A stretch of 64,000 bases of DNA from positions 620,001 through 684,000 of the forward strand of contig NZ_RCST01000001.1 of the NCBI RefSeq assembly GCF_013141865.1. The letters are read 5' to 3'. The position numbers and the translations under genes were made by a program. The notes beneath the pieces are model-generated. The model had not been told where the DNA came from. It made no database searches and saw only the letters and a program-made list of their open reading frames with translations. The DNA comes from Methylomonas sp. ZR1 (GTDB lineage Bacteria; Pseudomonadota; Gammaproteobacteria; Methylococcales; Methylomonadaceae). Of the stretch, positions 44,523 to 62,473 are shown piece after piece. The first letter of the stretch is position 1; the number at the start of each line of letters is the position of its first letter.

Positions 44523-44575
44523 GATTTTGCCCTCTGCGTGTTTCTGTCTGAAATCAACATAGTCAGTACGACTCA

Positions 44576-45076: not shown

Positions 45077-45084
45077 GGTGCCAC

Positions 45085-46152: not shown

Positions 46153-46619
46153 GGCTGGAAACTCATTACAAACCGTTGCGTCGCCGCCCCATCGTGGTCG
46201 TCATCCCACCAAATTTTTACCGCATACGCATCGCCGATCCCGTCGCAGTTGTGTGCGGATTTTGAATTTCCGTCCCCCGGGGTTTTGTCCTTACAAACAA
46301 CACCTTCGCCGCTAGGTAATTGACTTCTTAGTTGGTCGTTCCATTGTTTTAAATCGTAACCAGCCATTTGTGCCGGTGTGCAAGTGTTTGCTAAGCAATC
46401 GTTATTCGTTTCTGCTTGGTTATCGTAGTTACCCACTGCGTTTGCTCGTACTCGGTCGGCTATATCGTAAGCAAGCAAAGTAGCCTGTGAGCGAAAATAT
46501 GCACTTTGATTGTTCCGCAGGCTTGTGGATTGCAAGCCCGCCAAACCCAGCAAGCCCAGGGCAAGTATCACCACGGCGATCAAGACTTCTATTAATGTGA
46601 AACCGTTGGTTGTTTTCAT
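46149..46619 (-). CDS. pilV: Minor pilin PilV
   Basis: PilV (156 residues) has the prepilin site TNG|FTLIEVLIAVVILALGLLGLAGLQ with Glu5, then the conserved SLRNNQSAYFRSQATLLAYDIADRVRAN region in pieces. It belongs to the minor-pilin priming complex. It lies six bases after fimT and overlaps pilW. Confidence 0.92.
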   Translation of the reverse strand: MKTTNGFTLIEVLIAVVILALGLLGLAGLQSTSLRNNQSAYFRSQATLLAYDIADRVRANAVGNYDNQAETNNDCLANTCTPAQMAGYDLKQWNDQLRSQLPSGEGVVCKDKTPGDGNSKSAHNCDGIGDAYAVKIWWDDDHDGAATQRFVMSFQP

Positions 46620-46625
46620 CGGTAA

Positions 46626-47258
46626 CTAAAATGGGGGTAAGCAGGAGGTGATATTCGAGGCGGTGCTTGCGACCGTGTCCTTGTTTGGTATGCCATCGTT
46701 GTTTGCATCGAGGCCCATGCGCAATCGACCGATAGGGCTAACGATTATCAGCCTAGAGGTGTTTGCTTCGGGGACGTTATTGCCGTCGCTGTTGTTGCAG
46801 ATTACAAAGCTACCTCCACCATTACTTTGTCCAGAAGAACTAAAATTAATGAAGTCTGAAAAACTATTGCCTCGCAAGGTATAAGAGGCGCTTAGTGCTC
46901 CATAAGTTTTGAGAAGCACATCGTCGCCTGTGTCGAACTCGCCATTGTCATTTGCATCCGTGAAAACATCCCAGCCTTGCTCCCAATTCGCTGAAGCCCA
47001 GGCGGTCTTGTTCTTATTAGTCGATGATTTGTCGTCAACTTTGCGCACAGTCACCGATACGCCACGTTTTACCGCTTCGCTTCGCGCTAAATTCAATGCT
47101 GTGACTAATTCGTTGGCTGATGTGGTTAAGCGGTTGTTGCTGATAATCGAAGTGAAGCTTGGAATTGCAATACCCACCAGAACGCCGGCGATAGCGATGG
47201 TCACCATCAGCTCAACCAGTGTGAATCCTTTAGATGTTTCGGTGAATAATTTTTGCAT
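46626..47258 (-). CDS. Minor pilin FimT/FimU (GspH-like)
   Basis: A 210-residue GspH/FimT-type prepilin: SKG|FTLVELMVTIAIAGVLVGIAIPSF with Glu5, then NRLTTSANELVTALNLARSEAVKRG, the GspH hallmark. It is the first gene of the minor-pilin operon fimT-pilV-pilW-pilX-pilY1(-pilE). Whether FimT or FimU is the better name cannot be decided from sequence. Confidence 0.88.
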   Translation of the reverse strand: MQKLFTETSKGFTLVELMVTIAIAGVLVGIAIPSFTSIISNNRLTTSANELVTALNLARSEAVKRGVSVTVRKVDDKSSTNKNKTAWASANWEQGWDVFTDANDNGEFDTGDDVLLKTYGALSASYTLRGNSFSDFINFSSSGQSNGGGSFVICNNSDGNNVPEANTSRLIIVSPIGRLRMGLDANNDGIPNKDTVASTASNITSCLPPF

Positions 47259-47671: not shown

Positions 47672-48034
47672 GTGGCAACAATTCTTGCTGTAGACGATTC
47701 CGCATCAATGAGGCAGATGGTGGCGTTTACCTTAAAAGGCGCTGGCTATAACGTGGTAGAAGCGGTTGATGGAGCGGATGCCTTGAATAAAGCGAAAGCG
47801 CAAGCTTTTGACTGCGTCGTTACCGATGTCAATATGCCAAACAAGGACGGAATTGAGTTGATTAGAGACTTACGCGCTTTACCAAACTACAAGTTTACGC
47901 CGATGTTGATGCTGACCACTGAAGCGGGAGCGGATAAAAAGCAGCAGGGCAAAGATGCCGGTGCAACGGGCTGGATAGTGAAGCCATTCAATCCCGACCA
48001 ACTCTTGAAAACGATCAAAAAAGTGATGGGCTAA
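47672..48034 (+). CDS. cheY: CheY-type single-domain response regulator
   Basis: A 120-residue receiver domain. It has the acidic pair in AVDDSASMRQM, the phosphoacceptor aspartate in CVVTDVNMPNKDG, the threonine in MLMLTTE and the lysine in IVKPFNPDQL. GVDGADALNKA-type (EAVDGADALNKA) is typical of CheY beside CheA in non-enteric clusters. It has no output domain, so it acts by protein binding. Start GTG with AGGAG upstream. It leads the chemosensory operon. Confidence 0.93.
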   Translation: MATILAVDDSASMRQMVAFTLKGAGYNVVEAVDGADALNKAKAQAFDCVVTDVNMPNKDGIELIRDLRALPNYKFTPMLMLTTEAGADKKQQGKDAGATGWIVKPFNPDQLLKTIKKVMG

Positions 48035-48073: not shown

Positions 48074-50164
48074 ATGTCAATCGATATGGCGCAATTTCAT
48101 CAGGTTTTTTTCGAAGAGAGTTTCGAAGGACTTGACGCGATGGAATCGGGATTGCTCAACCTTGATTTGGGGGATGTTAACGTCGAAGACATCAACACCA
48201 TTTTCCGCGCCGCGCATTCGATCAAAGGCGGTAGCGGAACTTTCGGTTTTACCGCTGTTTCCGACTTCACCCATGTCATGGAGACCTTGCTTGATGAAAT
48301 GCGCGACGGCCGCAGAAAGATCACGCAACCGGCGGTTGATGTGTTGTTGGGGTCAGTCGATTGTCTGAGAGATATGCTGCAATCGATACAAAACGGTAGT
48401 GAAGTGGATCAGTCTGATGTCGCTGAGCATAAATTAGCATTGGATAACGAGCTAAATAATACAGTGCCCAGTTCCCCTGCAGGGAGACACGCTCCAGACA
48501 CTTCGGCTTCAAAAAGTGCTGCGGATTTGCCGGCTGAAGAAGCTGAACAAATCGCCGGCTGGGTGATAGCCTTCAGCCCGCATTTACATTTGTTGAAGAC
48601 CGGTAACGAACCGGTACGGATGTTCAGGGAGTTGGCAGCCCTGGGCCAATTGACGACAAACGTTGATTTACAAGGTGTACCCGATCTTGACGATTTGGAT
48701 CCGGAAGAGTGTCATTTGTCCTGGAAATTGCGTGTTTTGGGCGATATTCCGGAGGCGGAAATTGACGAGATTTTCGATTGGGTCGAGGACGATTGCGATT
48801 TGGCTAAACAACCGATCTACAAAACGTCCACAGGTTCTGCGCAAGCCCAGGTCTCAGTAGACATCGCTATAACGCCCGTTACAAACAGCGTTCATAGAGA
48901 CATCAGCCCTGAGTTTGCAAGTACCGGAGAATCTGAGTCGAATACGCTGGAGCGTAAAAACGGCAAAAAAGAGGAAGCAAAAGCCGCACCGAAAGGTTCA
49001 AGTTCCATTCGCGTGGATACCAGCAAAATCGATACCTTGATTAACATGGTAGGGGAGTTGGTCATTACGCAATCCATGCTCAGCTTATTAGGCGAACATT
49101 TCGAACTGAATAAACTTGATCAATTGAAAAACGGACTTTCTCAGCTAGAGCGGCATACCCGCGAACTGCAGGAAAGCGTGATGAACATTCGCATGCTGCC
49201 TATCAGTTTCGTGTTTAGCCGTTTCCCACGGCTGGCGCATGATATCAGCAGCAAACTAGGTAAAAAAATCGAACTTAAATTGGTGGGTGAACACACCGAA
49301 GTGGATAAGACAGTCGTCGAACTGCTCAGTGATCCCTTGGTTCACTTAGTCAGAAACAGCTTGGATCATGGCATTGAAATGCCCGATGTCAGGCTCGCGG
49401 CCGGCAAACCCGAGACGGGTACGGTTACCCTGGAAGCTTATCATCGCGGCGGGAACATCGTGATTGAAGTGACTGACGATGGTAAAGGCCTCGACAAAGA
49501 TAAATTAAGGGCCAAAGCCATTGAAAAAGGTTTGATCGATCCCGATGCGATCTTAAGCGATAAGCAAACATACGAGCTGATTTTTATGCCGGGGTTTTCT
49601 ACGGCCGAAAAGCTTACCGATATTTCCGGTCGCGGCGTGGGGATGGATGTGGTGCGACGTAATATCCAGGCTTTGGGCGGCAACATAGAAATCCTTTCCG
49701 AGTTAGGCAAAGGGTCCACCATTTCCATTCATCTCCCGCTGACTCTGGCTATCCTGGATGGTCAGTCGATTGCGGTTGGCGACGAAACCTACATATTACC
49801 CTTGGGTTCTATTATCGAGTCACTCCACGTCAAGGAAGACAGGCTCAATCGAGTAGCGGGCAAAGGTGAAACTTTCCTGTTACGCGGCCAATATCTGCCG
49901 ATTATCAGAATGCATCAAATTTTTAACGTACCCACCGCGAAAACCACCAAGCTAACCGAAGGTTTAATTGTGGTTGTCGAAGGGCAAGGGTTGCGTTGCG
50001 GATTGTTCGTGGATGATCTGCTTGGACAGCAGCAAGTGGTAATCAAGTCGCTCGAGGCGAATTATCGACGGATTGACGGGGTATCCGGCGCAACTATTCT
50101 GGGCGATGGTTCGGTGGCACTGATTCTTGATATCCCCGGTCTCGTGCGTTTAGCCAATCAATAA
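48074..50164 (+). CDS. cheA: Chemotaxis histidine kinase CheA
   Basis: CheA (696 residues). The P1 Hpt domain carries the phospho-accepting His48 (FRAAHSIKGGSGTFGF). A P2-like module follows at about 155-250 (GWVIAFSPHLHLLKTGNEPVRMFRELAALG in pieces). After a linker, P3 dimerisation starts at SIRVDTSKIDTLINMVGELVITQS. P4 ATPase has HLVRNSLDHGIE (N box), VTDDGKGLD, FMPGFSTAEKLTDISGRGVGMDVV (G boxes). P5 CheW-like ends at GDGSVALILDIPGL. It phosphorylates CheY and CheB on receptor control. Confidence 0.96.
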   Translation: MSIDMAQFHQVFFEESFEGLDAMESGLLNLDLGDVNVEDINTIFRAAHSIKGGSGTFGFTAVSDFTHVMETLLDEMRDGRRKITQPAVDVLLGSVDCLRDMLQSIQNGSEVDQSDVAEHKLALDNELNNTVPSSPAGRHAPDTSASKSAADLPAEEAEQIAGWVIAFSPHLHLLKTGNEPVRMFRELAALGQLTTNVDLQGVPDLDDLDPEECHLSWKLRVLGDIPEAEIDEIFDWVEDDCDLAKQPIYKTSTGSAQAQVSVDIAITPVTNSVHRDISPEFASTGESESNTLERKNGKKEEAKAAPKGSSSIRVDTSKIDTLINMVGELVITQSMLSLLGEHFELNKLDQLKNGLSQLERHTRELQESVMNIRMLPISFVFSRFPRLAHDISSKLGKKIELKLVGEHTEVDKTVVELLSDPLVHLVRNSLDHGIEMPDVRLAAGKPETGTVTLEAYHRGGNIVIEVTDDGKGLDKDKLRAKAIEKGLIDPDAILSDKQTYELIFMPGFSTAEKLTDISGRGVGMDVVRRNIQALGGNIEILSELGKGSTISIHLPLTLAILDGQSIAVGDETYILPLGSIIESLHVKEDRLNRVAGKGETFLLRGQYLPIIRMHQIFNVPTAKTTKLTEGLIVVVEGQGLRCGLFVDDLLGQQQVVIKSLEANYRRIDGVSGATILGDGSVALILDIPGLVRLANQ

Positions 50165-50183
50165 ACCTAACCTAAAGCGTGTC

Positions 50184-50699
50184 ATGTCGGAAATAATCGA
50201 ACTCAGCAGCACTGACCAGCAAGATGCAAAGCGGTTGGATACTAGTTTGCAGTTTTTAAGCTTTACCTTGGGCCAGGAAGAATATGGGGTAGATATTCTG
50301 CGAGTTCAGGAGATTCGCAGTTGGGAGCCGGTATCGCGAATTCCCAATGTGCCGGCTTATGAAAAAGGTGTGGTCAATCTGCGCGGTGCGATAGTGCCTA
50401 TCATAGATTTACGCGAGCGATTTCAACTGGGACACAGTGATTATTCGCCTTTGACGGTCGTTGTGGTCTTGCAAGCGCACATGGCCGATAAAACCAGGAT
50501 CATCGGGGTCGTGGTGGATTCAGTTTCAGACGTTGTCGATGTCAATAAAAAAAGTATCCAAAGCGCGCCGAATTTTGGTGCAAAAGTCAGTACTGAATTT
50601 ATCAACGGCCTGGTTTCAGTAAATGGCCGAATGGTGATGCTGTTGGATGTAGATAAATTATTAAAACTTGATGGCCTGGATGGTGAAGATGAAAGTTAA
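50184..50699 (+). CDS. cheW: Coupling protein CheW, first copy
   Basis: A 171-residue CheW domain protein linking receptors to CheA: FLSFTLGQEEYGVDILRVQEIRSWEPVSRIPNVPAYEKGVVNLRGAIVPIIDLRERF (in pieces YGVDILRVQEIR, VVNLRGAIVPIIDLR). It lies 19 bases after cheA and before the PAS receptor. A closely related second CheW follows the receptor at 53133. Confidence 0.94.
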   Translation: MSEIIELSSTDQQDAKRLDTSLQFLSFTLGQEEYGVDILRVQEIRSWEPVSRIPNVPAYEKGVVNLRGAIVPIIDLRERFQLGHSDYSPLTVVVVLQAHMADKTRIIGVVVDSVSDVVDVNKKSIQSAPNFGAKVSTEFINGLVSVNGRMVMLLDVDKLLKLDGLDGEDES

Positions 50700-50741
50700 A
50701 AAAAGAGCTGTTTATGGCTGGCTTGTAATGGAGGATATGCA

Positions 50742-53087
50742 ATGAAACTCAATCACCCTGTGACTGATCGCGAAGTCTTAATGAAGCCAGGCACCATTTT
50801 GGTCACGCGCACCAATTTAAAAGGCATTATTACCTATGCAAACGACGCTTTTATTGAGATTAGCGGCTTTAGCAAGGATGAACTTGTGGGGGCGAATCAT
50901 AATATGGTTCGTCATCCTGACATGCCGCCGGCGGCATTTGAAGATTTATGGAATTGTTTGAAGGCTGGGCGCCCGTGGACCGCACCCGTCAAAAATAGGA
51001 CCAAGACCGGAGATTATTATTGGGTAGAAGCAAACGTAACGCCGGTGTTCAAGAATGGCAAAGTACAGGAATACCTGTCGGTTCGTTACGCGCCATCCCG
51101 GGAACAAATCCAACAAGCCGAATCTTTGTATGAAAAACTAAATGCCAATAAAGCCACAATACGGCCGACGGGGATTAATGCGCTCATCAAGAAATTACTG
51201 GAACTGGGCTTGTGGAAAAAAGTGGGGATTATCTACCTGATCTTTTTGTTGCCGACGATCAATTCCATTTACGATCACTATATCGAACAAAAATACCCGG
51301 AGATGTTCCTGTTTTTGGGCTTGGCCGGATTTGCCTCAATATTGGGATATTCGGTGATTCGTAGTGTTGTAAAGGCTTTAGAGAATTCGATACGTATTTC
51401 TTATCGGATGGCGGATGAGCAATTCCGGAATACTATAGATTTGGACCGTGGTGATGAGATCGGCGATTTCTATCGAGCCTTATACGGCATGCAAGTTAAA
51501 TTGAATTCCGATTTGGCTTATTCCAAACAGGTAGCGTCGGAAGCGATGCGCATCAAGCAGGCGCTCGACAACGTGCAGTCCTGTGTCATGGTGGCTAACA
51601 ACGATTTAGACATCATCTACATGAATAAGACAGTAGCCGATATGTTTCAAAATGCGGAAGCGGACATTCGCAAGCAATTGCCTGACTTCAATGCCAGCAA
51701 ACTGATGGGCGCCAACATCGATCAATTCCATAAAAAACCAGCTCACCAACGAGGCCTGTTGGCAAACCTATCCAGCACATTTAGTTCTGCGTTGGTGATT
51801 GGCGGCAGACACATGAATATCGTTGCCAACCCGGTTAAGAACGACGAAAACGAGCGTATCGGCATCGTGGTCGAGTGGTTGGATAGAACGCATGAAGTAA
51901 AAATCGAGCAGGAAATTGCCAGCATTGTGGAAGCTGTCAAAGTGGGTGAGTTGTCCAGCCGGATTGAGATGGCCGACAAACAAGGCTTTTTTGAAACGCT
52001 CAGCGAAGGCATCAACGAACTGACCGATGTGATCGAAAATGTATTCAGAGATGTTGGCAGTACCATGCAAAGTATGGCTTCTGGAGATTTGACCAATCGA
52101 ATCACCAGTGATTACCAAGGGGTTTATTTAAACTGCAAGAACGATATTAATACCACCATCGATAAACTGAACGAAATTTTCGGTCAGGTTAGCGAGTCTG
52201 CTCATTTTATTAACAACTCGTCCCAAGAAATTGCCAGCGGTAATAACAATCTATCACAACGCGCCGAGCAACAGGCTGCGAATTTGCAGCAAACTGCCGC
52301 CAGCATGGAAGAGTTGACCAGTACTGTAAAAAATAACGCCGATAACGCTCAGCAAGCTAACGCAGTGGCCAATAACGCCAGAGAATTGGCTGAAAAAGGT
52401 GGGAATGTCGTCAAGGCGGCGGTTTCCGCCATGCAGGAAATCAATGAGAGCAGTAATAAAATCGCTGACATCATCAGCGTGATTGATGAAATTGCCTTCC
52501 AAACCAATTTGTTGGCTTTGAATGCCTCAGTGGAAGCAGCCAGAGCAGGCGAGCAAGGTAGAGGCTTTTCCGTTGTTGCCACAGAGGTGAGAAATCTGGC
52601 GCAACGCAGTGCCACGGCAGCCAGGGAGAGTAAAGAGCTGATTCAAACCAGTGTGCAAAAAGTCAGAGCAGGCACCGAGTTTGTGAACGAAACCGGTAAA
52701 GCGCTGAACGAAATTGTGGCAGGTGTGCAGAAGGTGGGAGATATCGTCGCCCAGATTGCCGATGCAAGTATTGAGCAGTCTGCGGGTATAGGGCAGGTGA
52801 ATCAGGCTGTTGCGCAAATGGACGAAATCACCCAACAAAACGCGGCCTTAGCCGAAGAAGCATCTGCCGCCAGTGTTTCAATGAGCGACTTGTCGACGAA
52901 TATGGTCGAGATGTTGGCGTTTTTCAAAACAGAAAAAAAATCCGGGCAGCAAAAAGTCGTTCATCAAGCCGATAGTGCCAGTGTTGTTCGTGCAGAGGCC
53001 AATAGAATGGCATCATCGCCAGCGGTTCGTCAGCCGAGTAGTTTTAAGCAAACCTCACAAGCCGACGACGAGTGGCAGGATTTTTAG
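50742..53087 (+). CDS. Aer-like PAS chemoreceptor with C-terminal CheR-docking pentapeptide
   Basis: A 781-residue methyl-accepting protein. An N-terminal Aer-like PAS domain (about 15-125, TRTNLKGIITYANDAFIEISGF, NMVRHPDMPPAAFEDLW) lies in the cytoplasm. Two adjacent TMs (about 150-215) follow without a periplasmic domain, then a HAMP-like stretch, a second PAS-like region (about 265-390) and further HAMP-like segments. The MCP hairpin has [29 protein letters not shown]. The last residues DEWQDF fit the xWxxF CheR/CheB tether. It probably senses internal redox or energy state like Aer. Confidence 0.9.
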   Translation: MKLNHPVTDREVLMKPGTILVTRTNLKGIITYANDAFIEISGFSKDELVGANHNMVRHPDMPPAAFEDLWNCLKAGRPWTAPVKNRTKTGDYYWVEANVTPVFKNGKVQEYLSVRYAPSREQIQQAESLYEKLNANKATIRPTGINALIKKLLELGLWKKVGIIYLIFLLPTINSIYDHYIEQKYPEMFLFLGLAGFASILGYSVIRSVVKALENSIRISYRMADEQFRNTIDLDRGDEIGDFYRALYGMQVKLNSDLAYSKQVASEAMRIKQALDNVQSCVMVANNDLDIIYMNKTVADMFQNAEADIRKQLPDFNASKLMGANIDQFHKKPAHQRGLLANLSSTFSSALVIGGRHMNIVANPVKNDENERIGIVVEWLDRTHEVKIEQEIASIVEAVKVGELSSRIEMADKQGFFETLSEGINELTDVIENVFRDVGSTMQSMASGDLTNRITSDYQGVYLNCKNDINTTIDKLNEIFGQVSESAHFINNSSQEIASGNNNLSQRAEQQAANLQQTAASMEELTSTVKNNADNAQQANAVANNARELAEKGGNVVKAAVSAMQEINESSNKIADIISVIDEIAFQTNLLALNASVEAARAGEQGRGFSVVATEVRNLAQRSATAARESKELIQTSVQKVRAGTEFVNETGKALNEIVAGVQKVGDIVAQIADASIEQSAGIGQVNQAVAQMDEITQQNAALAEEASAASVSMSDLSTNMVEMLAFFKTEKKSGQQKVVHQADSASVVRAEANRMASSPAVRQPSSFKQTSQADDEWQDF

Positions 53088-53132
53088 CGGAGTTGCTTGA
53101 TTGACCAAACCATTAGATAGGGAATAGCCGCC

Positions 53133-53639
53133 ATGACAGCCGATTTAGAATCCAATCAGCACGTTGAGCAATTTCTGACTTTCGAGTTGGAAGGCGAGGC
53201 ATATGGCATCGAAATTTTGAAAGTCCAAGAAATTAGAGGCTGGGAGCCCATTAGAAAAATTCCCAATACCCCTGATTTTGTAAAAGGTGCGTTAAATTTG
53301 CGCGGTTCCATAGTGCCGATTGTCGATCTGCGCGAACGTTTTCAGATGCAAAAAGTGGAATATACCCCGGTGACAGTCGTTATTGTGATGAGTGTCAATA
53401 CTGCTTCCGGTACTTCGGTGATGGGCATCGTCGCTGATGCCGTATCCGACGTGTTGGATATTAAGCTGTCCGATATAAAAGAAGCGCCGAATTTGGGGTC
53501 GAAAATCAATACTCAATATATGCGCGGCATGTTCGTCGGCAAGAAAAATATGGTGATGTTATTGGATGTCGATAAGCTTTTAAATCCGGAAGAGTTTGTC
53601 GGTATTGCCGGGCTTGCTGCTATTGCCGAGGGTAAATGA
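53133..53639 (+). CDS. cheW: Coupling protein CheW, second copy
   Basis: A 168-residue CheW (QFLTFELEGEAYGIEILKVQEIRGWEPIRKIPNTPDFVKGALNLRGSIVPIVDLRERF in pieces AYGIEILKVQEIRGW, GALNLRGSIVPIVDLR). It closely resembles the first CheW at 50184, so the two flank the receptor as a duplicated pair. Its stop overlaps the ParA-type gene (ATGA). Confidence 0.93.
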   Translation: MTADLESNQHVEQFLTFELEGEAYGIEILKVQEIRGWEPIRKIPNTPDFVKGALNLRGSIVPIVDLRERFQMQKVEYTPVTVVIVMSVNTASGTSVMGIVADAVSDVLDIKLSDIKEAPNLGSKINTQYMRGMFVGKKNMVMLLDVDKLLNPEEFVGIAGLAAIAEGK

Positions 53640-54397
53640 GCGCGAGGATTGTAGCGGTCCTTAACCAGAAAGGCGGGGTAGGAAAAACCACCACTTCGGT
53701 CAATTTAACCCACGCTCTAGCTAAACTCGGTAAGAAAATTACAGTGATAGACTTTGATCCACAGAGTCATTTGGCCGTTTCGCTTGGTTCCGTAGATACG
53801 CAAACAAGTGGGATTGATAAGGTTTTGTTGGAAGGGGCGAGTCTCGCGGAGCAATCAATTCCGGTTAGAAAGAATCTGAATTTGGTGGTTGCCGGTCCAA
53901 GATTGCAGGAAATTGAGCAATTGACGGATGGTGGAGCCAGACGTGGCGATCTGCTTCGCAGAGCTTTGCTTGACGGCAATCGCGATGAAGATTTTATCTT
54001 TATCGATTGTCCCCCTTCTTCCGGGGTATTGGTAGCCAATGCCTTGTTTGCCGCCGATGAAATATTGGTGCCAATGACCAGTGATTATTTGGCATTGCAA
54101 GGCTTGTCGCATTTGGTGGGAACCATCAGGAAATTTGAAAGTGCTTCGAAAAGGCCCTACAAATTTTCCCTGGTCATGTCCAGGTATATTCCGGCCAGAC
54201 GCATGTCAAAGGAGGTATTGAGTGTCATACAAAAATACTTCCCTGGGCAAATTTTGGCGACCACCATTCGGGAAACGGCTTTACTCGCAGAGTGCCCTAG
54301 TTTTGGTAAAACCATTTTTGAATATCGCCCGGGCTGCCGTTCCGCACGAGATTTTATGGCACTTGCCGAAGACTTTTTAGAAGGGAGGATGATGTAA
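53636..54397 (+). CDS. ParA-family ATPase of the chemosensory array (ParC-like)
   Basis: A 253-residue MinD/ParA ATPase with the deviant Walker A KGGVGKTTTSVNL, the A' motif VIDFDPQSHLA and Walker B FIFIDCPPSSG. Because it is embedded in and overlaps chemotaxis genes on both sides, it is unlikely to serve chromosome segregation. In Vibrio and Shewanella a similar ParA (ParC) places chemotaxis arrays at the pole with the partner ParP. No parP is visible here; the next gene, a STAS protein with a long disordered N-terminus, could fill that role. Confidence 0.85.
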   Translation: MSARIVAVLNQKGGVGKTTTSVNLTHALAKLGKKITVIDFDPQSHLAVSLGSVDTQTSGIDKVLLEGASLAEQSIPVRKNLNLVVAGPRLQEIEQLTDGGARRGDLLRRALLDGNRDEDFIFIDCPPSSGVLVANALFAADEILVPMTSDYLALQGLSHLVGTIRKFESASKRPYKFSLVMSRYIPARRMSKEVLSVIQKYFPGQILATTIRETALLAECPSFGKTIFEYRPGCRSARDFMALAEDFLEGRMM

Positions 54398-54906
54398 TGG
54401 CGGAACAAAATGAAGATAGTTTGATCGGTTACGACCCTCTGGCCTGGATGCATCGATCAGATTTCAATCACGACTCACAAAAAGCCCAAGTTAGTGAAGC
54501 GGAAGCGGACAGTTCGACAGAACTTGCGAGCTCGACAGAAACAGGGTCAAACCTTGAGACAGACTTGGATCAAGTGCCGGCCGACGGCTCTGATCCATAC
54601 GCCTCTCAAAGTGAGCGAGCGGTTTTGGTATTGGATCCGGTACTGAATATTCAAAATGTCGCGGCTCTCCACCAGCGCTTAACGCAGATGCTCAGCAATT
54701 TTGAGGCTATCGATATCGACGCTTCCGGCGTGACGATGATAGATACGGCCACTCTGCAACTGTTATTGATTTTAAAGCAGACCGCAATTGGCTTGCAGAA
54801 ATCTGTTTCTATCGATTTTCCTTCCGATAAGTTTATTGAAGCCTCGGAGTTGTTGGGGATTGCCGAAATGTTGGAAGTTGATCAGGCTGCATCCGGCTTC
54901 TTTTGA
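54397..54906 (+). CDS. STAS-domain protein with short N-terminal DPLAWM motif
   Basis: A 169-residue protein. A short conserved-looking motif (GYDPLAWMHRSDF) near residue 11 is followed by an acidic, Ser/Thr-rich, probably disordered linker (about 30-70). A C-terminal STAS domain follows (about 75-165, VLVLDPVLNIQNVAALHQRL, AIDIDASGVTMIDTATLQLLL). STAS domains are anti-anti-sigma or partner-binding modules; a phosphorylatable position near DASGVTMIDT is possible. Starts one base inside the ParA stop (TAATG). The arrangement suggests an adapter between the ParA ATPase and the array, which is inference. Confidence 0.75.
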   Translation: MAEQNEDSLIGYDPLAWMHRSDFNHDSQKAQVSEAEADSSTELASSTETGSNLETDLDQVPADGSDPYASQSERAVLVLDPVLNIQNVAALHQRLTQMLSNFEAIDIDASGVTMIDTATLQLLLILKQTAIGLQKSVSIDFPSDKFIEASELLGIAEMLEVDQAASGFF

Positions 54907-54930
54907 TGGGGTACTACCCGAATATAAAAA

Positions 54931-55767
54931 ATGAAAGAAAAAGCGCGCGAGTTTGAATATACCCAAGCAGATTTTGACGTTCTAAGGAAAATATCCAACC
55001 AATATTCCGGAATCTTGGTGCCGGACGATAAATTCGATATGTTTTATTCGAGGTTGTCGAAACGGGTCCGCATGCTGGGCTTTACCAGCTTCAAACAGTA
55101 TTGTCACTATTTGAAAAACAACCCGGATACTGAGTTTACTGAATTTATTAATGCTGTCACCACTAACCTCACTTCTTTTTTTCGCGAAAATCACCACTTT
55201 GAATATTTAAGCAAGACGGTTGTACCGGGCTTGCTTAAAAAACATGCCGGGACTAAACAGATTAAAGTGTGGTCCGCAGGTTGCTCAACAGGTGAGGAGC
55301 CTTATTCTTTGGCGATGACCTTGAAGGAAAGCGTTCCGGCTGATTGGACTATAAATATTCTGGCTACCGATCTTGATACGAATGTTTTGGCCACCGCAGC
55401 AGCCGGTATTTACATGGCTGATCGCGTGACAGGAATAGCCGAGCAACGCCTTAAGCGCTGGTTTCAAAAAGGTGTGGGTGGACAAGCGAACAAGGTGCGA
55501 GTTAAACCGGAATTGAAAGAATTGATAGAGTTTAAACAATTGAATTTGATGCAGGAGTGGCCCTTGAAAGGGTATTTTGATTTTATTTTTTGCCGAAATG
55601 TTTTGATCTATTTTGATCGGGAAACCAAGGCGATGTTAGCGAATCGTTACTGCGGCTTATTGGAAGAGGGTTCATATTTATTCATTGGACATTCAGAATC
55701 CTTGCATCAGCTCGATACCGGATTCAGTTTGATAGGTAACACCATCTACAGGAAGTCGATTAAGTGA
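54931..55767 (+). CDS. cheR: Chemoreceptor glutamate methyltransferase CheR
   Basis: CheR (278 residues) methylates receptor glutamates using SAM. The N-terminal helical domain (DFDVLRKISNQYSGILV, TSFFRENHHFEYL) and the SAM fold (KVWSAGCSTGEEPYSLAM, LATDLDTNVLATAAAGIY, DFIFCRNVLIYFD, YLFIGHSESL) are intact. It can dock on the EWQDF tail of the neighbouring receptor if it keeps the beta-subdomain seen in pentapeptide-dependent CheR. Overlaps cheD (GTGA). Confidence 0.95.
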   Translation: MKEKAREFEYTQADFDVLRKISNQYSGILVPDDKFDMFYSRLSKRVRMLGFTSFKQYCHYLKNNPDTEFTEFINAVTTNLTSFFRENHHFEYLSKTVVPGLLKKHAGTKQIKVWSAGCSTGEEPYSLAMTLKESVPADWTINILATDLDTNVLATAAAGIYMADRVTGIAEQRLKRWFQKGVGGQANKVRVKPELKELIEFKQLNLMQEWPLKGYFDFIFCRNVLIYFDRETKAMLANRYCGLLEEGSYLFIGHSESLHQLDTGFSLIGNTIYRKSIK

Positions 55768-56402
55768 GTCATGTGCGACATGTGGATAGACCGCTTATCG
55801 CCGGCTTCGAAAACGTCAATCGATATTGGGATCAAGAAAATCAAATAGTGGCGGCAAAATTAATGCCCGGTGATTACTACGTCACCAAACAGGATGAAAT
55901 GATTACGACTGTGCTGGGTTCTTGCGTGGCAGCCTGTATCAGGGATGTGGTGACCGGTGTGGGGGGTATGAATCATTTCATGTTGCCGGAGACCAGTAAA
56001 AGTCGCTTGAATGCCAGAGACGAAGCTGTCGTTGGCAATGCCTCTCGCTATGGCAATTACGCGATGGAACATTTGATCAACGCTATTTTGCAAAATGGCG
56101 GTAAGCGTAAAAACCTGGAAGTTAAGCTGTTCGGCGGCGGCAAAATCATCGCTACCCTGGGTGATGTGGGGGCCAGAAACATTCAATTCGTTTTGGACTA
56201 TGTGGACACTGAAGCGTTGAATCTGGTTTCTCATGATTTGGGCGATATTTATCCGCGTAAGGTGAATTTCTTTCCGCATACCGGACGGGTCAGAATGAAA
56301 AAAATTAAAGATTTACACAACCAAACTATCTTCCTGCGCGAGAAGCAATATAGTTCCAGTATCAAGGACGCACCGGTTGAAGGTAGCGTAGAGCTATTTT
56401 AG
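55764..56402 (+). CDS. cheD: Chemoreceptor glutamine deamidase CheD
   Basis: CheD (212 residues) deamidates receptor glutamines. The catalytic cysteine is in TTVLGSCVAACIRD and the histidine in GGMNHFMLPE; the later AVVGNASRYGNYAMEHLINAIL (in pieces) and LFGGGKI blocks are typical. Its usual partner CheC is absent. The C-terminus ends in GSVELF, an acidic LF tail shared with two other proteins in the window. It overlaps cheR and is followed by cheB after nine bases. Confidence 0.95.
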   Translation: MSHVRHVDRPLIAGFENVNRYWDQENQIVAAKLMPGDYYVTKQDEMITTVLGSCVAACIRDVVTGVGGMNHFMLPETSKSRLNARDEAVVGNASRYGNYAMEHLINAILQNGGKRKNLEVKLFGGGKIIATLGDVGARNIQFVLDYVDTEALNLVSHDLGDIYPRKVNFFPHTGRVRMKKIKDLHNQTIFLREKQYSSSIKDAPVEGSVELF

Positions 56403-56411
56403 GAAACCAGG

Positions 56412-57473
56412 ATGACAAAAATTAAGCTATTGATTGTTGACGACTCGGCATTAATTCGCCAAATGTTGACGCAAATTTTTAATGAGGCAGGCGATATTGA
56501 AGTTGTCGGCACGGCCAGTGATCCGATTATTGCCCGGGAAAAAATAAAGGCCTTGAATCCCGACGTATTAACACTGGATGTAGAAATGCCGCGTATGGAT
56601 GGTCTGACATTTTTACGTAATTTGATGCGTTTACGACCGATGCCGGTGGTCATGATTTCAACGTTGACCGAAAAAGGCGCCGAAGTGACCCTTGATGCGT
56701 TAGCGCTCGGTGCGGTTGATTTCGTGGCAAAACCAAAAATCGATGTCTCCCATGGCTTACGAGCCTATGCCGATGAGATTATCGGTAAAATCAGGATGGC
56801 CGCTCAAGCAAAAGTCAAAGCTTTGGAAACCAATCGGGTTAATGTCCCAGCTCTTAATTCAGTGAATGAGAATGCAGCCAGTACGATGAAAAAGCATTTC
56901 AAAACGACTCATAAAATTGTGGCGTTGGGTTCTTCAACGGGCGGCACCGAAGCGGTCAAGGAACTGGTAAAAAGCCTGCCTAGGACGGCGCCGGCGATTG
57001 TCATTACCCAACATTTGCCGCTCGCCTTCAGCGCTTCGTTTGCCAAACATGTTAACGAGGCCACTGAGATGACTGCTTGCGTGGCTAGCGATGGGCAACT
57101 GATATTGCCCGGAAATATTTATATAGCGCCAGGTGATCAGCATTTAATGGTTGTGAGAGATGGTGCTCGTTATGCGTGCCGCCTTGATGATGGTCCACCT
57201 GTCAACAGACATAAGCCTTCCGTGGATGTCCTGTTTCGATCAGTTGCCGAGAATGTGGGTAGCAATGCGGTTGGGGTTATGTTGACGGGCATGGGGGCGG
57301 ATGGTGCCAGAGCCATGCTTGAGATGCGCGAGGCCGGGGCCGTCAACATAGTGCAGGATGAAGCATCCAGTATCGTTTGGGGCATGCCCGGCGAGGCCTA
57401 CAAACTGGGAGCCGCGCATCATGTGTTATCCTTGGGGAAAATAGCGGAAAAAATCCTGGCCTTGGTGGATTGA
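56412..57473 (+). CDS. cheB: Chemotaxis methylesterase/deamidase CheB
   Basis: CheB (353 residues): N-terminal receiver domain ([13 protein letters not shown]; phospho-Asp in [15 protein letters not shown] lysine), a linker of about 40 residues, and a C-terminal esterase with the catalytic serine in [11 protein letters not shown], histidine in ITQHLP and aspartate in [12 protein letters not shown]. It removes methyl groups from receptors under CheA control. AGGA precedes the ATG. Confidence 0.96.
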
Positions 57474-57477
57474 AAAT

Positions 57478-58680
57478 ATGTTGCAGTTCCTAAAAGATAA
57501 CGCGCTTCTGGTTTTATTCACGCTGGTAGTTTTGTTATTGCCGTTGCTTTCGTCCAACGCGCTGGTTTATTGGCTAGCCGCCCCCATCGCAACCATGTTG
57601 TGGATGGTCAAAGCATTTCGTGCGCAACGTGCGCAAGTGTCAGCCTTGACAAACAGCAAGGGTCTAAGCGAAGCCGAATTGGTGCGCGCGATTGATGACT
57701 ATTTACTGCATTTGAAAGATTGTATCGACCAAGAAGCCTCCTATTTTCGCGCGGAATTGGAACAGCTCAAATCCATGCTTGCCGATGCGGTGACTACGAT
57801 GTCCAACAGCTTCAATAGTTTGGCTAGTCTGACGTCCGGGCAGTCATCGATAGTATATTCGTTGGTAGCTGATCTGGAAGGAAGTACCGACAAAGGGCGT
57901 AGCAGTATCAATTTCACGAGTTTTGCTCAGGAAACCGATGATGTCCTGCAGTTTTTTATCGACCATATTCTGCAAATCAGTAAGCAGAGCATGGAAATGG
58001 TCGCGGTCATCAATGATGTTGGGGGCCATATGGCTCATGTCGAGAAACTATTGGGCGATGTGCAGAAGATTGCCGATCAAACCAATTTGTTGGCGCTGAA
58101 TGCCGCCATAGAAGCAGCCAGGGCGGGAGAAGCCGGTCGAGGCTTTGCAGTGGTTGCGGGAGAAGTGCGAAATCTTTCAAAAAACTCCGATAAGTTCAGC
58201 GAGGAAATTAAGCGCGTGGTGAAGGCCTCCAAGGATAATATCCGCGAAGCGCAAACCATGATCGAAATAATGGCCTCCAAAGACATGAACGTGGCGATTA
58301 GTTCCAAAGCCAGTATCGACAAGATGATGGATGATATCGCCGTCATTAATGCCAATATCTCCAACAACGTCGGCGAAATTTCCCAACTGACCAATCAAAT
58401 CGAGTTCAATGTGGGTAATGCGGTGAGAGGTCTGCAATTTGAGGATATGGCCCGGCAATTGATTGAATATTTACAATTCAATTTAGAACATTTCGGTTCG
58501 CTATCTGACGAGGTCAGTATAGGTTTGGGGGTATTTAAAACCGGTGGCGACACTGATTGGCGTGACCAATTACGGCAAGGCTCGGATCGCTTGAAAATCA
58601 TGAAGCAACAGTGGCAAGTCAGAAAATCGCACATTGTGTCGCAATCTTCCATGGAGGAAGGCGATGTGGATCTGTTTTAG
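57478..58680 (+). CDS. Receptor-like signalling protein lacking a sensor domain, with CheZ-like C-terminal helix
   Basis: A 400-residue protein. Two TMs (about 8-24 and 27-45) with almost no periplasmic loop are followed by an alpha-helical MCP-type module whose tip is [39 protein letters not shown] (in pieces). A C-terminal helix [19 protein letters not shown] (about 315-333) holds F-x-D323-x-x-x-Q327, the spacing of the CheZ active site (FQDLTGQ). The protein ends EEGDVDLF. It lies four bases after cheB. It may be a signalling partner or CheY-P phosphatase rather than a sensor; that is inference. Confidence 0.75.
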
Positions 58681-58724
58681 GCTAAAGGTAAGAGATGACA
58701 TGAAAATTTGTGAGGTTAAAGAAT

Positions 58725-59024
58725 ATGGGTATTGATGCACGTGTTGATGCGGGAGTGCTGTCGATTAAAATAAGCGGTCGGTTCGATTTCGGCGTGCACA
58801 ACGAGTTTCGCGAAGCCACCAAGCTGGTTGAAAGTGGCGTGAAGTTGATAGAAGTGGATTTGATCGGCACCGAATACTTAGATAGCTCAGCCCTTGGCAT
58901 GCTGTTAGTTCTGCGAGATAAGATGGCGGGTGATAAGTCGGCAATACGGATTAAAAATTCGCGTACCGAAGTTAAAAAAATTTTGGAAATCGCTAATTTT
59001 GATAAATTATTTACACTATCCTGA
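58725..59024 (+). CDS. STAS-domain anti-sigma factor antagonist-like protein
   Basis: A 99-residue stand-alone STAS protein (GVLSIKISGRFDFGVHNEF, LIEVDLIGTEYLDSSALGMLLVLRDK). The SSA region around DSSALGM includes the serine that SpoIIAA-type proteins have phosphorylated. GAGG before the ATG at 58725 supports this start over a GTG at 58710. It is the last gene of the chemosensory cluster and resembles STAS proteins encoded beside HptB/flagellar regulators. No cognate kinase or anti-sigma factor is in the window. Confidence 0.85.
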   Translation: MGIDARVDAGVLSIKISGRFDFGVHNEFREATKLVESGVKLIEVDLIGTEYLDSSALGMLLVLRDKMAGDKSAIRIKNSRTEVKKILEIANFDKLFTLS

Positions 59025-59096
59025 GCAATCCCGCTTTTTTATATAACCTAATGGCGCGATCAAACCGACAACGGTTTGCGTAGCCGCCAACACCTC

Positions 59097-60194
59097 ATGA
59101 ACCAGCAGACTGACTTTTCCAGTTCCGATTTCATTAGAAATTTTTTCCAGCGATTTCTACCCAATTCCCAAGTTGTTTCCCTAGCCATAGTTTTGCTGGG
59201 CGGCTTTTTATTGATATACGGCTTGCTGGATTTGCTGATGCCGGTCTTTGTAGCGATTGTGTTGGCGTATCTACTGGAAGGGCTGGTGGTTAAAGCCGAA
59301 CAGCGCCAACTCGGTCGTTTGATTTCGGTGCATCTCGTATTCTTTGCGTTTATGGCTGTGCTGGGTTTTGTGTTGTTTGTGTTGGTGCCGATAGTCTCCG
59401 AGCAAACCGTGCAACTGGTGCAACACATACCGGAGATTGTTTCCAGTACCCAAGCCGAAATCATGCGCTTCCCTGAACGCCATCCGGAACTGATTTCGGA
59501 AGTCCGGATTCGCGAAATCATGTTCTCCATTCAGCAAGACTTGCTCAAGTATGGTCAGGATTTGATCTCCGGCTCCGCCCAATCGTTTGTCGGATTGGTG
59601 GCGGTGATCATTTACTTGTTTTTGGTGCCGTTGATGGTGTTTTTCTTTCTGAAAGATAAACAGGTTTTATTGGGCTGGTTTGTACAGTTTCTGCCAAGGG
59701 ATACCAGTCTTAGCCTGCGAGTGTGGCATGAAGTCGATAGGCAAATAGCCAATTACGTTAGAGGCAAATTTCTCGAAGTGTTTATCCTGTGGGCGGTCAG
59801 TTACATAGTCTTCTGGTTGTTGGGTTTGAATTATGCGATGTTGCTTGCGGTACTGATGGGCTTGTCTGTGGTGATTCCTTATGTCGGCGCGACATTAGTC
59901 ACTTTTCCGGTATTGGCGGTGGCTTATGTGCAGTGGGGCGTGGGCGGCAGTGATCATTTTATGTACGTATTTATTGCCTATTCAGTGATTCAGGCGCTGG
60001 ATGGTGTCATATTGGTGCCGCTGCTGTTTTCTGAAGCCGTGAATTTGCATCCTATTGCAATTATTGTTGCCATCCTGTTTTTTGGCGGCTTATGGGGATT
60101 TTGGGGGGTGTTTTTTGCGATACCCTTGGCCACGCTGGTTAAAGCGGTGTTAATGGCGTGGCCAAAGGCTGAGATCAGTCAATCATCGGCTTGA
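59097..60194 (+). CDS. AI-2E family (PerM-type) transporter
   Basis: A 365-residue polytopic protein of the AI-2E/PerM exporter family. It has about eight TMs, a central soluble region (IPEIVSSTQAEIMRFPERHPELISE in pieces), and the late motifs LMGLSVVIPYVGATLVTFPV and VILVPLLFSEAVNLHPIAIIVAILFFGGLWGFWGVFFAIPLATLVKAV (in pieces). The family substrate is poorly defined. No good ribosome binding site precedes either the ATG at 59097 or an earlier TTG. It converges with the PhoH gene; the stops are six bases apart. Confidence 0.88.
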   Translation: MNQQTDFSSSDFIRNFFQRFLPNSQVVSLAIVLLGGFLLIYGLLDLLMPVFVAIVLAYLLEGLVVKAEQRQLGRLISVHLVFFAFMAVLGFVLFVLVPIVSEQTVQLVQHIPEIVSSTQAEIMRFPERHPELISEVRIREIMFSIQQDLLKYGQDLISGSAQSFVGLVAVIIYLFLVPLMVFFFLKDKQVLLGWFVQFLPRDTSLSLRVWHEVDRQIANYVRGKFLEVFILWAVSYIVFWLLGLNYAMLLAVLMGLSVVIPYVGATLVTFPVLAVAYVQWGVGGSDHFMYVFIAYSVIQALDGVILVPLLFSEAVNLHPIAIIVAILFFGGLWGFWGVFFAIPLATLVKAVLMAWPKAEISQSSA

Positions 60195-60199
60195 TGGCG

Positions 60200-61612
60200 T
60201 TACAAATTATCGGATGCAAAATCCGCCAGGCGCGAACGCTCGCCACGCCGCAAAGTAATGTGGGCGCTATTCGGCCAAGATTTGAAACGATCAACCACAT
60301 AGGTCAAACCGGAGCTGGTAGCGGTTAAATACGGCGTATCGATTTGTGCCAGATTGCCGATACAGATGATCTTAGTGCCGGGCCCCGCTCGGGTAATCAA
60401 GGTTTTCATCTGTTTGGGCGTCAGGTTTTGTGCCTCGTCGATAATCAGGTAGCGGTTCAGAAAAGTCCGTCCGCGCATAAAGTTCAGCGAACGAATTTTT
60501 ACCCGGTTCATCATGACGTTTTGCGACGCGCCTTGTTCCCATTCGGTCGTGCCCGAGCGGCTGCCCAGCAACTCCAGGTTATCCATCAACGCCCCCATCC
60601 ACGGCGCCATTTTTTCCTCTTCCGTACCCGGTAAAAAGCCAATGTCCTCGCCGACCGGCATGGTCTCCCGTGTCATGATAATTTCCAAATAGGCTTTGCT
60701 TTCCAGAGTCAAAGACAGGCCGGCTGCCAGTGCCAGCAAGGTTTTACCGGTGCCGGCAGAGCCTATTAACGTCACGAAGTCAACGTTTGGGTCGAGCAGG
60801 GCATTCAACGCAAAATTTTGCTCGCGGTTTTTGGCGGAAATCCCCCAGATGCTATTGTGTTTGGTCCGATAATCGCGGGCCAATTGCAACACAGCCGTGT
60901 CGCCTTCGCGGCTTTTCACGATGGCTTCGAAGTTATCTTCGCCTTCCATATACAGATATTGGTTGGGATACCATTCGGCCACCAGCGGACCATTCACGCG
61001 GTAGTATGTGTGGTCGTTTTCCTGCCACGATTCCATCTTGCCGCCGTGTTCCTCCCAGAAGTCGCTGTCCAGCGGCATCGTGCCGGTGTAGAGCAGGTCT
61101 ATATCTTCGATGGTTTGATCGTTATGGTAATCCTCGGCAGTAATCTGTAGCGCGGCTGCTTTGATGCGCATATTGATGTCTTTGGAGACCAGGATTACAT
61201 TCACATCCGGGTATTCCTTACCCAAGGCCAATACGATACTGAGGATAGAATTATCGGCAATCTGTCCAGGTAGGTCGGCAGGGAGTAGATGCGACAATTG
61301 CCGGGTTTGAAAATACAAACGGCCGTCGAATTCTCGCTCGCCGTTCCGAGCATAATCGATGCGCGACAGCGGTAGCCCGGCGTTGATGGTTTGTTGATCG
61401 GCATCGCGGATTAATTCGTCCAAAAACCGGCTAACTTGGCGGACGTTGCGCGATACGTCGGATAAGCCTTTTTTGGCGTGATCCAATTCCTCCAGCACCA
61501 CCATCGGAATGAAAACATTATGTTCTTGAAAGCGAAAAATGGACGTTGGGTCGTGCATCAGTACGTTGGTGTCCAACACGAACAATTTTTTGCCGGCGGA
61601 TTGAATATTCAT
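60200..61612 (-). CDS. PIN-PhoH fusion ATPase (PhoH2/YlaK-like)
   Basis: A 470-residue protein. An N-terminal PIN ribonuclease-like domain (LFVLDTNVLMHDPTSIF, VLEELDHAKKG, VILVSKDINMRIKA) is fused to a C-terminal PhoH ATPase domain (Walker A LIGSAGTGKTLLALAAGL; MTRETMPVGEDIGFLPGTEEEKM in pieces; Walker B YLIIDEAQNLTPKQMKTLITR). PhoH2-type proteins have RNA helicase/RNase activity in mycobacteria. AAGGAT just before the ATG at 61612 selects this start. Divergent from the CheZ-like gene. Confidence 0.92.
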   Translation of the reverse strand: MNIQSAGKKLFVLDTNVLMHDPTSIFRFQEHNVFIPMVVLEELDHAKKGLSDVSRNVRQVSRFLDELIRDADQQTINAGLPLSRIDYARNGEREFDGRLYFQTRQLSHLLPADLPGQIADNSILSIVLALGKEYPDVNVILVSKDINMRIKAAALQITAEDYHNDQTIEDIDLLYTGTMPLDSDFWEEHGGKMESWQENDHTYYRVNGPLVAEWYPNQYLYMEGEDNFEAIVKSREGDTAVLQLARDYRTKHNSIWGISAKNREQNFALNALLDPNVDFVTLIGSAGTGKTLLALAAGLSLTLESKAYLEIIMTRETMPVGEDIGFLPGTEEEKMAPWMGALMDNLELLGSRSGTTEWEQGASQNVMMNRVKIRSLNFMRGRTFLNRYLIIDEAQNLTPKQMKTLITRAGPGTKIICIGNLAQIDTPYLTATSSGLTYVVDRFKSWPNSAHITLRRGERSRLADFASDNL

Positions 61613-61933
61613 ATTATCCTTGTAAAAAGCGTGGAAAAGCGGTTTCAACGCAAACCCGGTGCTGCGCTAAAGGTATTTCTACTCCAAGTGTAGAGTTATC
61701 GTCAACCGAGCTATCGCTTGCCCTGTGCCCGATAAGCGTTGCTACCCTATGCAAAAGAGTAGTGCGATTTCACCGTCAATTCCGGGTTTTTTAAAAATAC
61801 CGGTGCCAATAATCGACTAATCTCCAGTTTCTCTATACTTAAGCCGTCGTCATTGCTTTTGTATAGTCGGTTACAATAGGGCGCATATGTCGCGACAACT
61901 TAATTTGTATCGGTATTTTTAGGATAGTTATTT

Positions 61934-62473
61934 ATGACACTTTCACCATCAAGCCAGCCAGACTTGGGTTGGAGCCAGATTAGGGAAACCATCAAGCTGT
62001 TGACCGTTTCGGTTGCTCAGGTTGAGGGCAGCATGAAAGCCGGCGACGAGTCGGTCTCAGCCTTGGCCGACTCGTTTACCGGTATGGTTGAAGATATGAA
62101 AAATATTCATCAGTTACTGAGTAGTTTTCAGCAGAGCGAGAGCCGCGACCAGGCTCTGGCGCATTGCGAGGCGACCCAGGATAAAATCTATTCGGCGATT
62201 GTGGCGTTCCAGTTTTATGATCGCCTGCAGCAATGCTTACAACACGTGTCCAACAATCTAAAAGGCTTGTCGGTCATCATCGATACGCCGCAGAGGTTAT
62301 ATAATCCTGCCGAATGGTATAAGTTTCAGGAAAGCATTCGCAACCAGTACACTATGGAATCTGAAAAAGTGATGTTTGATGCTATCCATCAGGGCAAAAG
62401 CGTCGATGAAGCGCTAGCCTTGTTTCAACAAGCAAATCGGCAAAGCGACGACGATGAAATCGAACTGTTTTAA
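61934..62473 (+). CDS. Helical CheZ-like protein (candidate CheY phosphatase)
   Basis: A 179-residue helical protein with no assigned family. The segment AIVAFQFYDRLQQCLQHVSNNL (about 88-109) carries F94-x-D96-x-x-x-Q100, the same spacing as the CheZ catalytic site FQDLTGQ, and resembles the C-terminal helix of the receptor-like protein at 57478. The protein ends with an acidic tail (SDDDEIELF), as CheZ ends with a CheY-binding peptide. AGGAT precedes the ATG. It is 3 kb from the chemosensory cluster, separated by the PerM and PhoH genes. A CheY-P phosphatase role is a hypothesis. Confidence 0.6.
   Translation: MTLSPSSQPDLGWSQIRETIKLLTVSVAQVEGSMKAGDESVSALADSFTGMVEDMKNIHQLLSSFQQSESRDQALAHCEATQDKIYSAIVAFQFYDRLQQCLQHVSNNLKGLSVIIDTPQRLYNPAEWYKFQESIRNQYTMESEKVMFDAIHQGKSVDEALALFQQANRQSDDDEIELF

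Follow-up and report, generated by a model that had tools for sequence, protein, structure and literature searches.

The DNA analysed here (the window) is a stretch of 64,000 nucleotides from Methylomonas sp. ZR1 (contig NZ_RCST01000001.1) that contains a chemotaxis (che) operon with the gene order cheY, cheA, cheW, PAS-MCP, cheW, parA, STAS, cheR, cheD, cheB, P0001, STAS (MCP, methyl-accepting chemotaxis protein). The assignments of cheY, cheA, parA, and STAS are based on Pfam, and the remaining genes from cheA to cheB were named by eye from their sequences. Two proteins are of interest: P0001, a sensor-less, membrane-anchored receptor of the McpA-like kind with 400 amino acids (57478..58680), and P0002, a stand-alone protein of 179 amino acids encoded downstream of the operon (61934..62473). 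The features described lie on the plus strand of the window unless stated otherwise. The 3.2 kb between the two genes contain a STAS gene, a permease-like gene (perM), and a phoH-like gene on the opposite strand, the latter two being named by eye. Both proteins carry a D-x3-Q motif on a helix, which suggests a relationship to CheZ, the phosphatase of phosphorylated CheY (CheY-P).

In Pfam, P0001 matched the MCP signalling domain (MCPsignal, E 2.8e-28) and none of the sensor domains. Its predicted structure is a long helical hairpin formed by helices 28-135 and 146-354 (predicted local distance difference test, pLDDT, 77.1; predicted template modelling score, pTM, 0.39), and in Foldseek this model matched best with the cytoplasmic domains of receptors, for instance 2ch7 (E 3.6e-6). 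Residues 9-45 (57502..57612) form a hydrophobic hairpin that, as judged by eye and from the model helices (residues 9-24 and from residue 28), probably consists of two membrane helices with nearly no periplasmic loop. The tip of the signalling hairpin at residues 202-230 (58081..58167) is a mostly invariant block in 50 aligned rows and presumably, as in the family generally, the contact site for CheA and CheW. For P0002, no Pfam family above the cut-off and no NCBIfam match were obtained, and the MCP signalling domain was not found by Pfam. The AlphaFold2 model of P0002 (pLDDT 80.7, pTM 0.59) is a helical hairpin of helices 14-63 and 69-117 with small helices and a low-confidence tail.

A preliminary description of the window, made from the sequence alone, had reported an F-x-D-x-x-x-Q motif in both proteins and had named its conservation in orthologues as a test. 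Both translations confirm the motif. The helix of P0001 is encoded at 58432..58476, with D323 at 58444-58446 and Q327 at 58456-58458, and that of P0002 (FQFYDRLQQCLQHV) at 62207..62248, with D96 at 62219-62221 and Q100 at 62231-62233; the catalytic residues of Escherichia coli CheZ are Asp143 and Gln147. Conservation proved to be complete: L319, Q320, F321, E322, D323, and Q327 are invariant in 121/121 sequences (P0001 and the best 120 of 7999 proteins found), as are F92, Q93, F94, D96, R97, and Q100 in 121/121 sequences of the other family (P0002 and the best 120 of 678 proteins found). In more diverse, hand-picked sets, F92, Q93, F94, D96, Q100, and H104 of P0002 were invariant in 75/75 sequences with identities down to 40 %, and the D and Q of P0001 in 50/50 with identities down to 34 %. 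Since F, D, and Q are invariant in all 121 sequences of both families, the motif is not a product of chance. It sits on a helix in both predicted models.

The similarity of the two proteins extends beyond this motif, and the earlier finding stands in a wider form, as a motif in the N-terminal helix and an acidic tail are also common to P0001 and P0002. The N-helix motif comprises residues 103-115 of P0001 (57784..57822), where F112 and L115 are invariant in the 50 chosen rows, and the counterpart at residues 39-51 of P0002 (ESVSALADSFTGM; 62048..62086), where L44 and F48 are invariant in 75/75. The N-terminal arms of the two proteins aligned in hhalign with E 7.9e-4 over 17 columns (reversed control 0.1), that of P0002 aligned with the N-helix of McpA-like receptors with E 4.1e-5 over 41 columns (reversed 0.18), and the first arms of P0001 and the McpA-like receptors gave E 0.0091. 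At the C-terminus, P0001 ends with DVDLF (58663..58677; L399 and F400 in 121/121) and P0002 with EIELF (62456..62470; F179 in 121/121, E177 in 120/121, and L178 in 112/121), so that both families share the ending [DE]-[IV]-[DE]-L-F. At position -4 the P0001 family has V in 77 and I in 44 of the 121 sequences, and the aromatic CheR pentapeptide x-[HFYW]-x2-[HFYW] is absent. The tails resemble those of CheZ proteins such as DDVDDLLSSLGF in the start D-[DE]-[VI]-[DE] and the terminal F; the CheZ tails collected here mostly read D-[DE]-V-D-D-L-L-S-S-L-G-F. In our interpretation, the tail is related to the C-terminal end by which CheZ docks CheY, only shorter, and docking of CheY is predicted from this sequence likeness. 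Among 2811 open reading frames (ORFs) of at least 100 amino acids in 80 loci, 111 end with [IV][DE][LFIM]F, namely 76 homologues of P0002, 18 P0001-type receptors, and 17 ORFs in the cheD position (16 identified as CheD by pattern and one long ORF); several of these loci are near-identical, and the locus and tail counts are not independent. Three other CheD proteins (L028, L172, and L173) are without the tail.

The genome encodes two further sensor-less receptors with the helix, L006 (HFQFQDRIGQILQHV, tail EITFF) and L028 (AFQFQDRVSQMLSHV, tail DEITFF), whose genes each lie immediately upstream of cheY, a STAS gene, and cheA. Both were matched by the P0002 profile (E 1.8e-10 and 2.0e-8, respectively). 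A search with the 96 C-terminal residues of the L006 receptor yielded matches in 19/229 genomes at E 0.01, and all 22 matched frames contain QF[QY]D-x3-Q, a count that is biased because the query holds the motif and the choice of ORFs favoured it. Pseudomonas-type receptors (best 120 of 7827 matches) have an invariant D and Q in 120/120 and the tail [IV]TFF. The motif also has a fixed position in the receptor hairpin: D323 is located exactly 108 residues past the tip Arg in 121/121 sequences of the P0001 set, and the same spacing was found in 120/120 Pseudomonas-type receptors and in 18 of 19 McpA-like receptors, of which the tip pattern missed three, two with a spacing of 108 and L160 outside the measured set. 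P0001 and the L006 receptor nonetheless share only 13 % identity in their aligned C-terminal portions. Of 16 MCP ORFs in the genome whose tip could be located by pattern, two sensor-less ones have the motif at equal height, and the other 14 have no such motif at this position relative to the tip. The tip pattern missed the third sensor-less receptor (L006/L024), which does carry the motif, and two very long MCPs (L015 and L016). The latter are encoded by adjacent ORFs (G000:C1 3859092 and 3863516) and have identical signalling-domain scores of 137.0, suggesting a recent duplication.

A profile of the McpA-like module was built from 19 proteins chosen for QFQD, excluding 5 of 22 matches that were stand-alone or short frames. 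It aligned with P0002 over most of the length of this protein (E 1.5e-15) and with the C-terminal part of P0001 (E 2.7e-10), in both cases with the tail included; ordinary MCPs matched the latter with E 4.3e-5, as receptor kinship predicts. The module is thus almost certainly common to P0001, P0002, and the McpA-like receptors. Compared with a CheZ profile, the McpA-like module gave E 2.1e-6 over 66 columns, with D placed on D and Q on Q. The CheZ profile represents 21 of 30 gammaproteobacterial CheZ loci, which were kept by motif and tail pattern, and the CheZ motif is therefore not independent. Against the same profile, the reversed module gave 0.22 and 14 ordinary MCPs of the genome 0.11 (reversed 0.046). 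The module-CheZ score of 45.6 exceeded all 300 shuffles, of which the best reached 40.8 (150 heptad-block shuffles) and 24.3 (150 column shuffles). No similarity to CheZ was found for the first arm (E 0.05 to 0.17). Pfam CheZ was listed for 6 of 10 McpA-like relatives with E 1.7e-4 to 0.73, in each case below the cut-off. Taken from these alignments, kinship of the module with CheZ is quite probable.

Within the operon, the presumed substrate CheY is encoded at 47672..48034 (Pfam Response_reg, E 1e-27), followed by the remaining che genes from cheA to cheB at 48074..57473; the second STAS protein lies at 58710..59024 (Pfam STAS, E 8.3e-11). The cheD gene (55764..56402) encodes a protein with the C-terminus VELF (56388-56399), matching the tails of P0001 and P0002. 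The PAS-MCP (50742-53087) ends with EWQDF, corresponding to the pattern x-W-x-x-F and similar to a CheR/CheB tether, and the end of P0001 differs from it. On the minus strand, pilin-like and pilus-tip-like ORFs named by eye, one of them encoding 1730 amino acids, adjoin the operon at 39477-47258, and type IV pili may be connected with this che system.

The absence of cheZ, cheC, and cheX that had been noted beforehand is correct for the operon and, as to cheZ, does not extend to the genome. Pfam CheZ detected a single gene above the cut-off, which is located outside this operon in the flagellar locus beside the CheY of that locus, and this orthodox CheZ rules out that the genome is devoid of a phosphatase. 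Neither CheC nor CheX gave any Pfam match at E 0.1 or below anywhere in the genome. Four CheA matches correspond to four clusters; the flagellar cluster has CheZ beside its CheY, and the three non-flagellar clusters each have a D-x3-Q receptor, which is encoded right before cheY in two of them and in the same operon here. More generally, 16 of the 17 McpA-like loci have a cheY of related kind next to the receptor gene, two of these loci being from this genome. Two plasmids, one from Aeromonas sp. BC14 and the other from Pseudomonas sp. HR96, contain genes for a receptor with the same helix and tail, cheY, STAS, cheA, MCP, and cheW, and later cheR, cheD, and cheB.

The nearest relatives of P0002 are from Methylomonas (L031-L034; 96-99 % identity), and in 10 near Methylomonas loci P0002 occupies the same position downstream of the operon. 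In 8 of the 80 loci (L090, L096, L097, L101, L102, L105, L106, and L107), the P0002 homologue is encoded inside the operon directly before cheR; in most of the other 62, the sequence covered showed no che gene. The P0002 profile had matches in 34 of 229 gammaproteobacterial genomes, comprising 31 stand-alone and 13 receptor-sized frames, and stand-alone forms occurred in 29 of the 34. All of these 34 genomes encode CheA, compared with 145 of the 229 overall (hypergeometric 3.5e-8, with genomes treated as independent), and at least 10 of the 31 stand-alone genes are located no more than 10 kb from a cheA match. P0002 belongs to this che system. Homologues also occur on contigs labelled Desulfobacteraceae, Synechococcaceae, and Manganitrophaceae (L068, L082, and L084, respectively), reflecting either transfer or mis-binning.

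The layout of a receptor combined with a phosphatase-like helix, which had been suggested as a new one, is present, and it is not confined to this genome and fits the McpA-like receptors, such as McpA/CttP (PA0180) of Pseudomonas aeruginosa, VCA1088 of Vibrio cholerae, and SO_2117 of Shewanella oneidensis. P0001 resembles these receptors as a sensor-less membrane-anchored MCP with a conserved C-terminus that is not an aromatic CheR pentapeptide, and in being encoded in a che cluster that has cheY and a STAS (anti-sigma-antagonist) gene and is without cheZ (PMC7184735, PMC7534058). The link is based on gene order, on the published description, and on relatives such as those from Pseudomonas sp. 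HR96 and Aeromonas sp. BC14. P0001 differs as a diverged branch (LQFED; tail V/I-[DE]-L-F), and its operon has two cheW genes, parA, and a CheD with the tail. According to Ortega et al. 2020 (PMC7184735), McpA-like receptors occur in stage 1 and 2 F7 clusters, in which cheY is present and cheZ absent, are dispensable for the F7 array, could not be assigned to a heptad class, and have no CheR pentapeptide; their C-terminus is highly conserved, with a role described as unclear. A review on Vibrio (PMC7534058) describes them as always adjoining F7 clusters and states that experiments on VCA1088 have not been reported. In S. oneidensis, McpA clusters with the F6-type CheA3, and its overproduction raises swimming (PMC9855816), which would fit a change in CheY-P and has other readings. 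The mcpA-like gene is lost in stage 3, when the F7 system recruits an F6 CheY/CheZ pair (PMC7184735). In a search of titles and abstract openings, with subscription papers outside its reach, no literature tying McpA-like receptors to CheZ was found, which is no proof of novelty. The McpA-like receptors themselves were already known.

CheZ itself (PF04344) shares with the two proteins D-x3-Q on a helical hairpin, which for P0001 and P0002 is predicted by the models, an acidic C-terminal tail ending with F, and a cheY in the same cluster. P0001 and P0002 differ from it by a first arm for which no similarity was found, a shorter tail, and, in the case of P0001, the receptor signalling tip between the arms and the membrane location. 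Sensor kinases of the HisKA_3 type such as NarX have a D-x3-Q phosphatase motif as well. In these kinases the motif lies on a dimeric four-helix bundle whose target is a receiver domain, as would be the case here, but P0001 and P0002 have no His beside the Asp and no kinase domain. The presumed task would be the same as that of CheC, CheX, and FliY, whose fold and motif differ from the D-x3-Q module.

The homology of the module, the in-register alignment of D and Q with CheZ by way of related receptors, the invariance of these residues, the tail, and the co-occurrence with cheY in che clusters are directly supported. We infer from them catalysis, CheY binding, and a coupling of phosphatase activity to the state of the receptor or array. 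In the proposed mechanism, the module would form a helical hairpin and, in the manner of CheZ, expose on its second arm Asp and Gln at a distance of four residues, and these residues would let water attack the phospho-aspartate of the CheY encoded in this cluster, which the flexible acidic tail would dock as the C-terminus of CheZ does. The arms of P0002 would be joined by a short turn and free in the cytoplasm, and those of P0001 would form the base of a membrane-anchored receptor with the CheA/CheW-binding tip where P0002 has its turn. P0002 could accordingly be a receptor base in which the tip was replaced by a five-residue turn, or the receptor could be a P0002 with an inserted tip. On balance, we lean towards the interpretation that both proteins are phosphatases of CheY-P related to CheZ, P0001 as part of a membrane receptor and P0002 as a free protein. 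Confidence in it is tempered because of the weak control with the masked motif and the result of the S. oneidensis deletion, which are among several observations that weigh against it.

These opposing observations begin with the sequence comparisons. In direct hhalign comparisons with CheZ, the C-terminal part of P0001 aligned in register with E 0.054 (reversed 0.048) and P0002 out of register with E 0.067 (reversed 0.25 to 0.3), and neither protein gave a row with Pfam CheZ up to E 1. The case for CheZ rests on intermediates because these direct comparisons are not significant; the CheZ relationship put forward in the preliminary description is thus partly supported, by way of the McpA-like receptors, and not by the profiles of P0001 and P0002 themselves, which do not rise above their controls. 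When the motif was masked, the McpA-like module kept its register with CheZ at E 0.0025 (own reversed control 0.26), and the reversed control of the McpA-like first arm reached 0.0047; because of these two values, the likeness to CheZ outside the motif is weak. The sub-cut-off CheZ rows of the McpA-like relatives sit among unrelated coiled-coil families with like E-values, and the P0002 profile fails to find P0001 at E 1e-5. Among the listed Foldseek and VIA rows for the P0002 model, there were generic helical hairpins and no CheZ, a result that excludes nothing. In all four families the Asp points 121-163 degrees off the hydrophobic side of its own helix; the agreement of these directions suggests that D and Q are exposed on the helix surface, and the helix moments are insignificant in every family (p 0.06 to 0.56). 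The similarity to CheZ could also be convergence or chance resemblance of coiled coils, with QF-x-D being merely a packing feature, a view to which the insignificant direct profiles, the heptad-block shuffle score of 40.8, and the reversed control at 0.0047 lend some support. It is nevertheless very improbable, as the comparison of the McpA-like module with CheZ beats every shuffle and the ordinary MCPs, which are without the motif, gave 0.11 only.

Further opposing points concern biology. Deletion of mcpA left swimming of S. oneidensis unaltered (PMC9855816), McpA-like receptors group with the F6 and not the F7 array (PMC7184735, PMC9855816), and the old F7 cheY persists beyond the mcpA-like gene, through stages 3 and 4 until stage 5 (PMC7184735). 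The loss of the receptor gene in stage 3 fits a swap of one phosphatase for another, with the longer persistence of the old F7 cheY as a reservation. P0001 is absent from its usual place after cheB in 3 of 18 P0002 loci (L040, L090, and L096), from which it follows that P0002 can be kept without P0001; the two proteins may be partly interchangeable. The CheD of the operon shares its tail with both proteins, which could let CheY-P act on CheD, or the tail could be read by another protein. Finally, K92 of E. coli CheY pairs with Asp143 of CheZ. The three non-flagellar CheY proteins of the genome have no Lys at this place and a KK two to three residues later, and the flagellar CheY differs from them.

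The last two points bear on the possibility that the module binds CheY or CheY-P without hydrolysis, as a sink, a membrane anchor, or a CheY-P sensor feeding back on the receptor. Such a function would be compatible with a CheZ-like helix and tail in the face of a CheY whose Lys for Asp143 is not in place, and with the tail on CheD, as feedback by CheY-P fits equally well as catalysis. We regard it as unlikely, if worth keeping in mind, given that the Gln is as invariant as the Asp (121/121 in both families) and that the Gln of CheZ is catalytic and not a binding residue. Less probable still is a module of CheZ ancestry whose function was lost or changed and which, together with the tail, docks another partner, be it CheR or CheB as a tether, CheA, a STAS protein, or the ParA protein. 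In its spacing, the tail corresponds to the CheR pentapeptide with the first aromatic residue exchanged for I/V, CheD has the tail as well, and STAS genes are located near the receptor genes; the invariant D and Q would be left unexplained by docking, and the role of the tail as a CheR tether is disfavoured, as P. aeruginosa McpA, which has a valine at this position, binds none of four CheR proteins (PMC7184735).

Beyond the phosphatase interpretation favoured here, it is conceivable, if rather doubtful, that McpA-like receptors are two-sided switches, with the tip in the CheA array and the base acting as a CheZ-type phosphatase, so that the state of the array would set the removal of CheY-P at the membrane; P0002 would then be a freed base, and the tail on CheD would let CheY-P steer receptor deamidation (compare CheC/CheD of Bacillus). 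If true, F7-like systems would gain their missing signal-termination step. A CheZ-like module would account for the role of McpA-like receptors and for their conserved C-terminus, both of which are called unclear in the publications cited here. Should the phosphatase function hold, a chemoreceptor can carry the enzyme that terminates the signal of its own pathway, and this may explain how the signal is shut off in signalling systems without CheZ.

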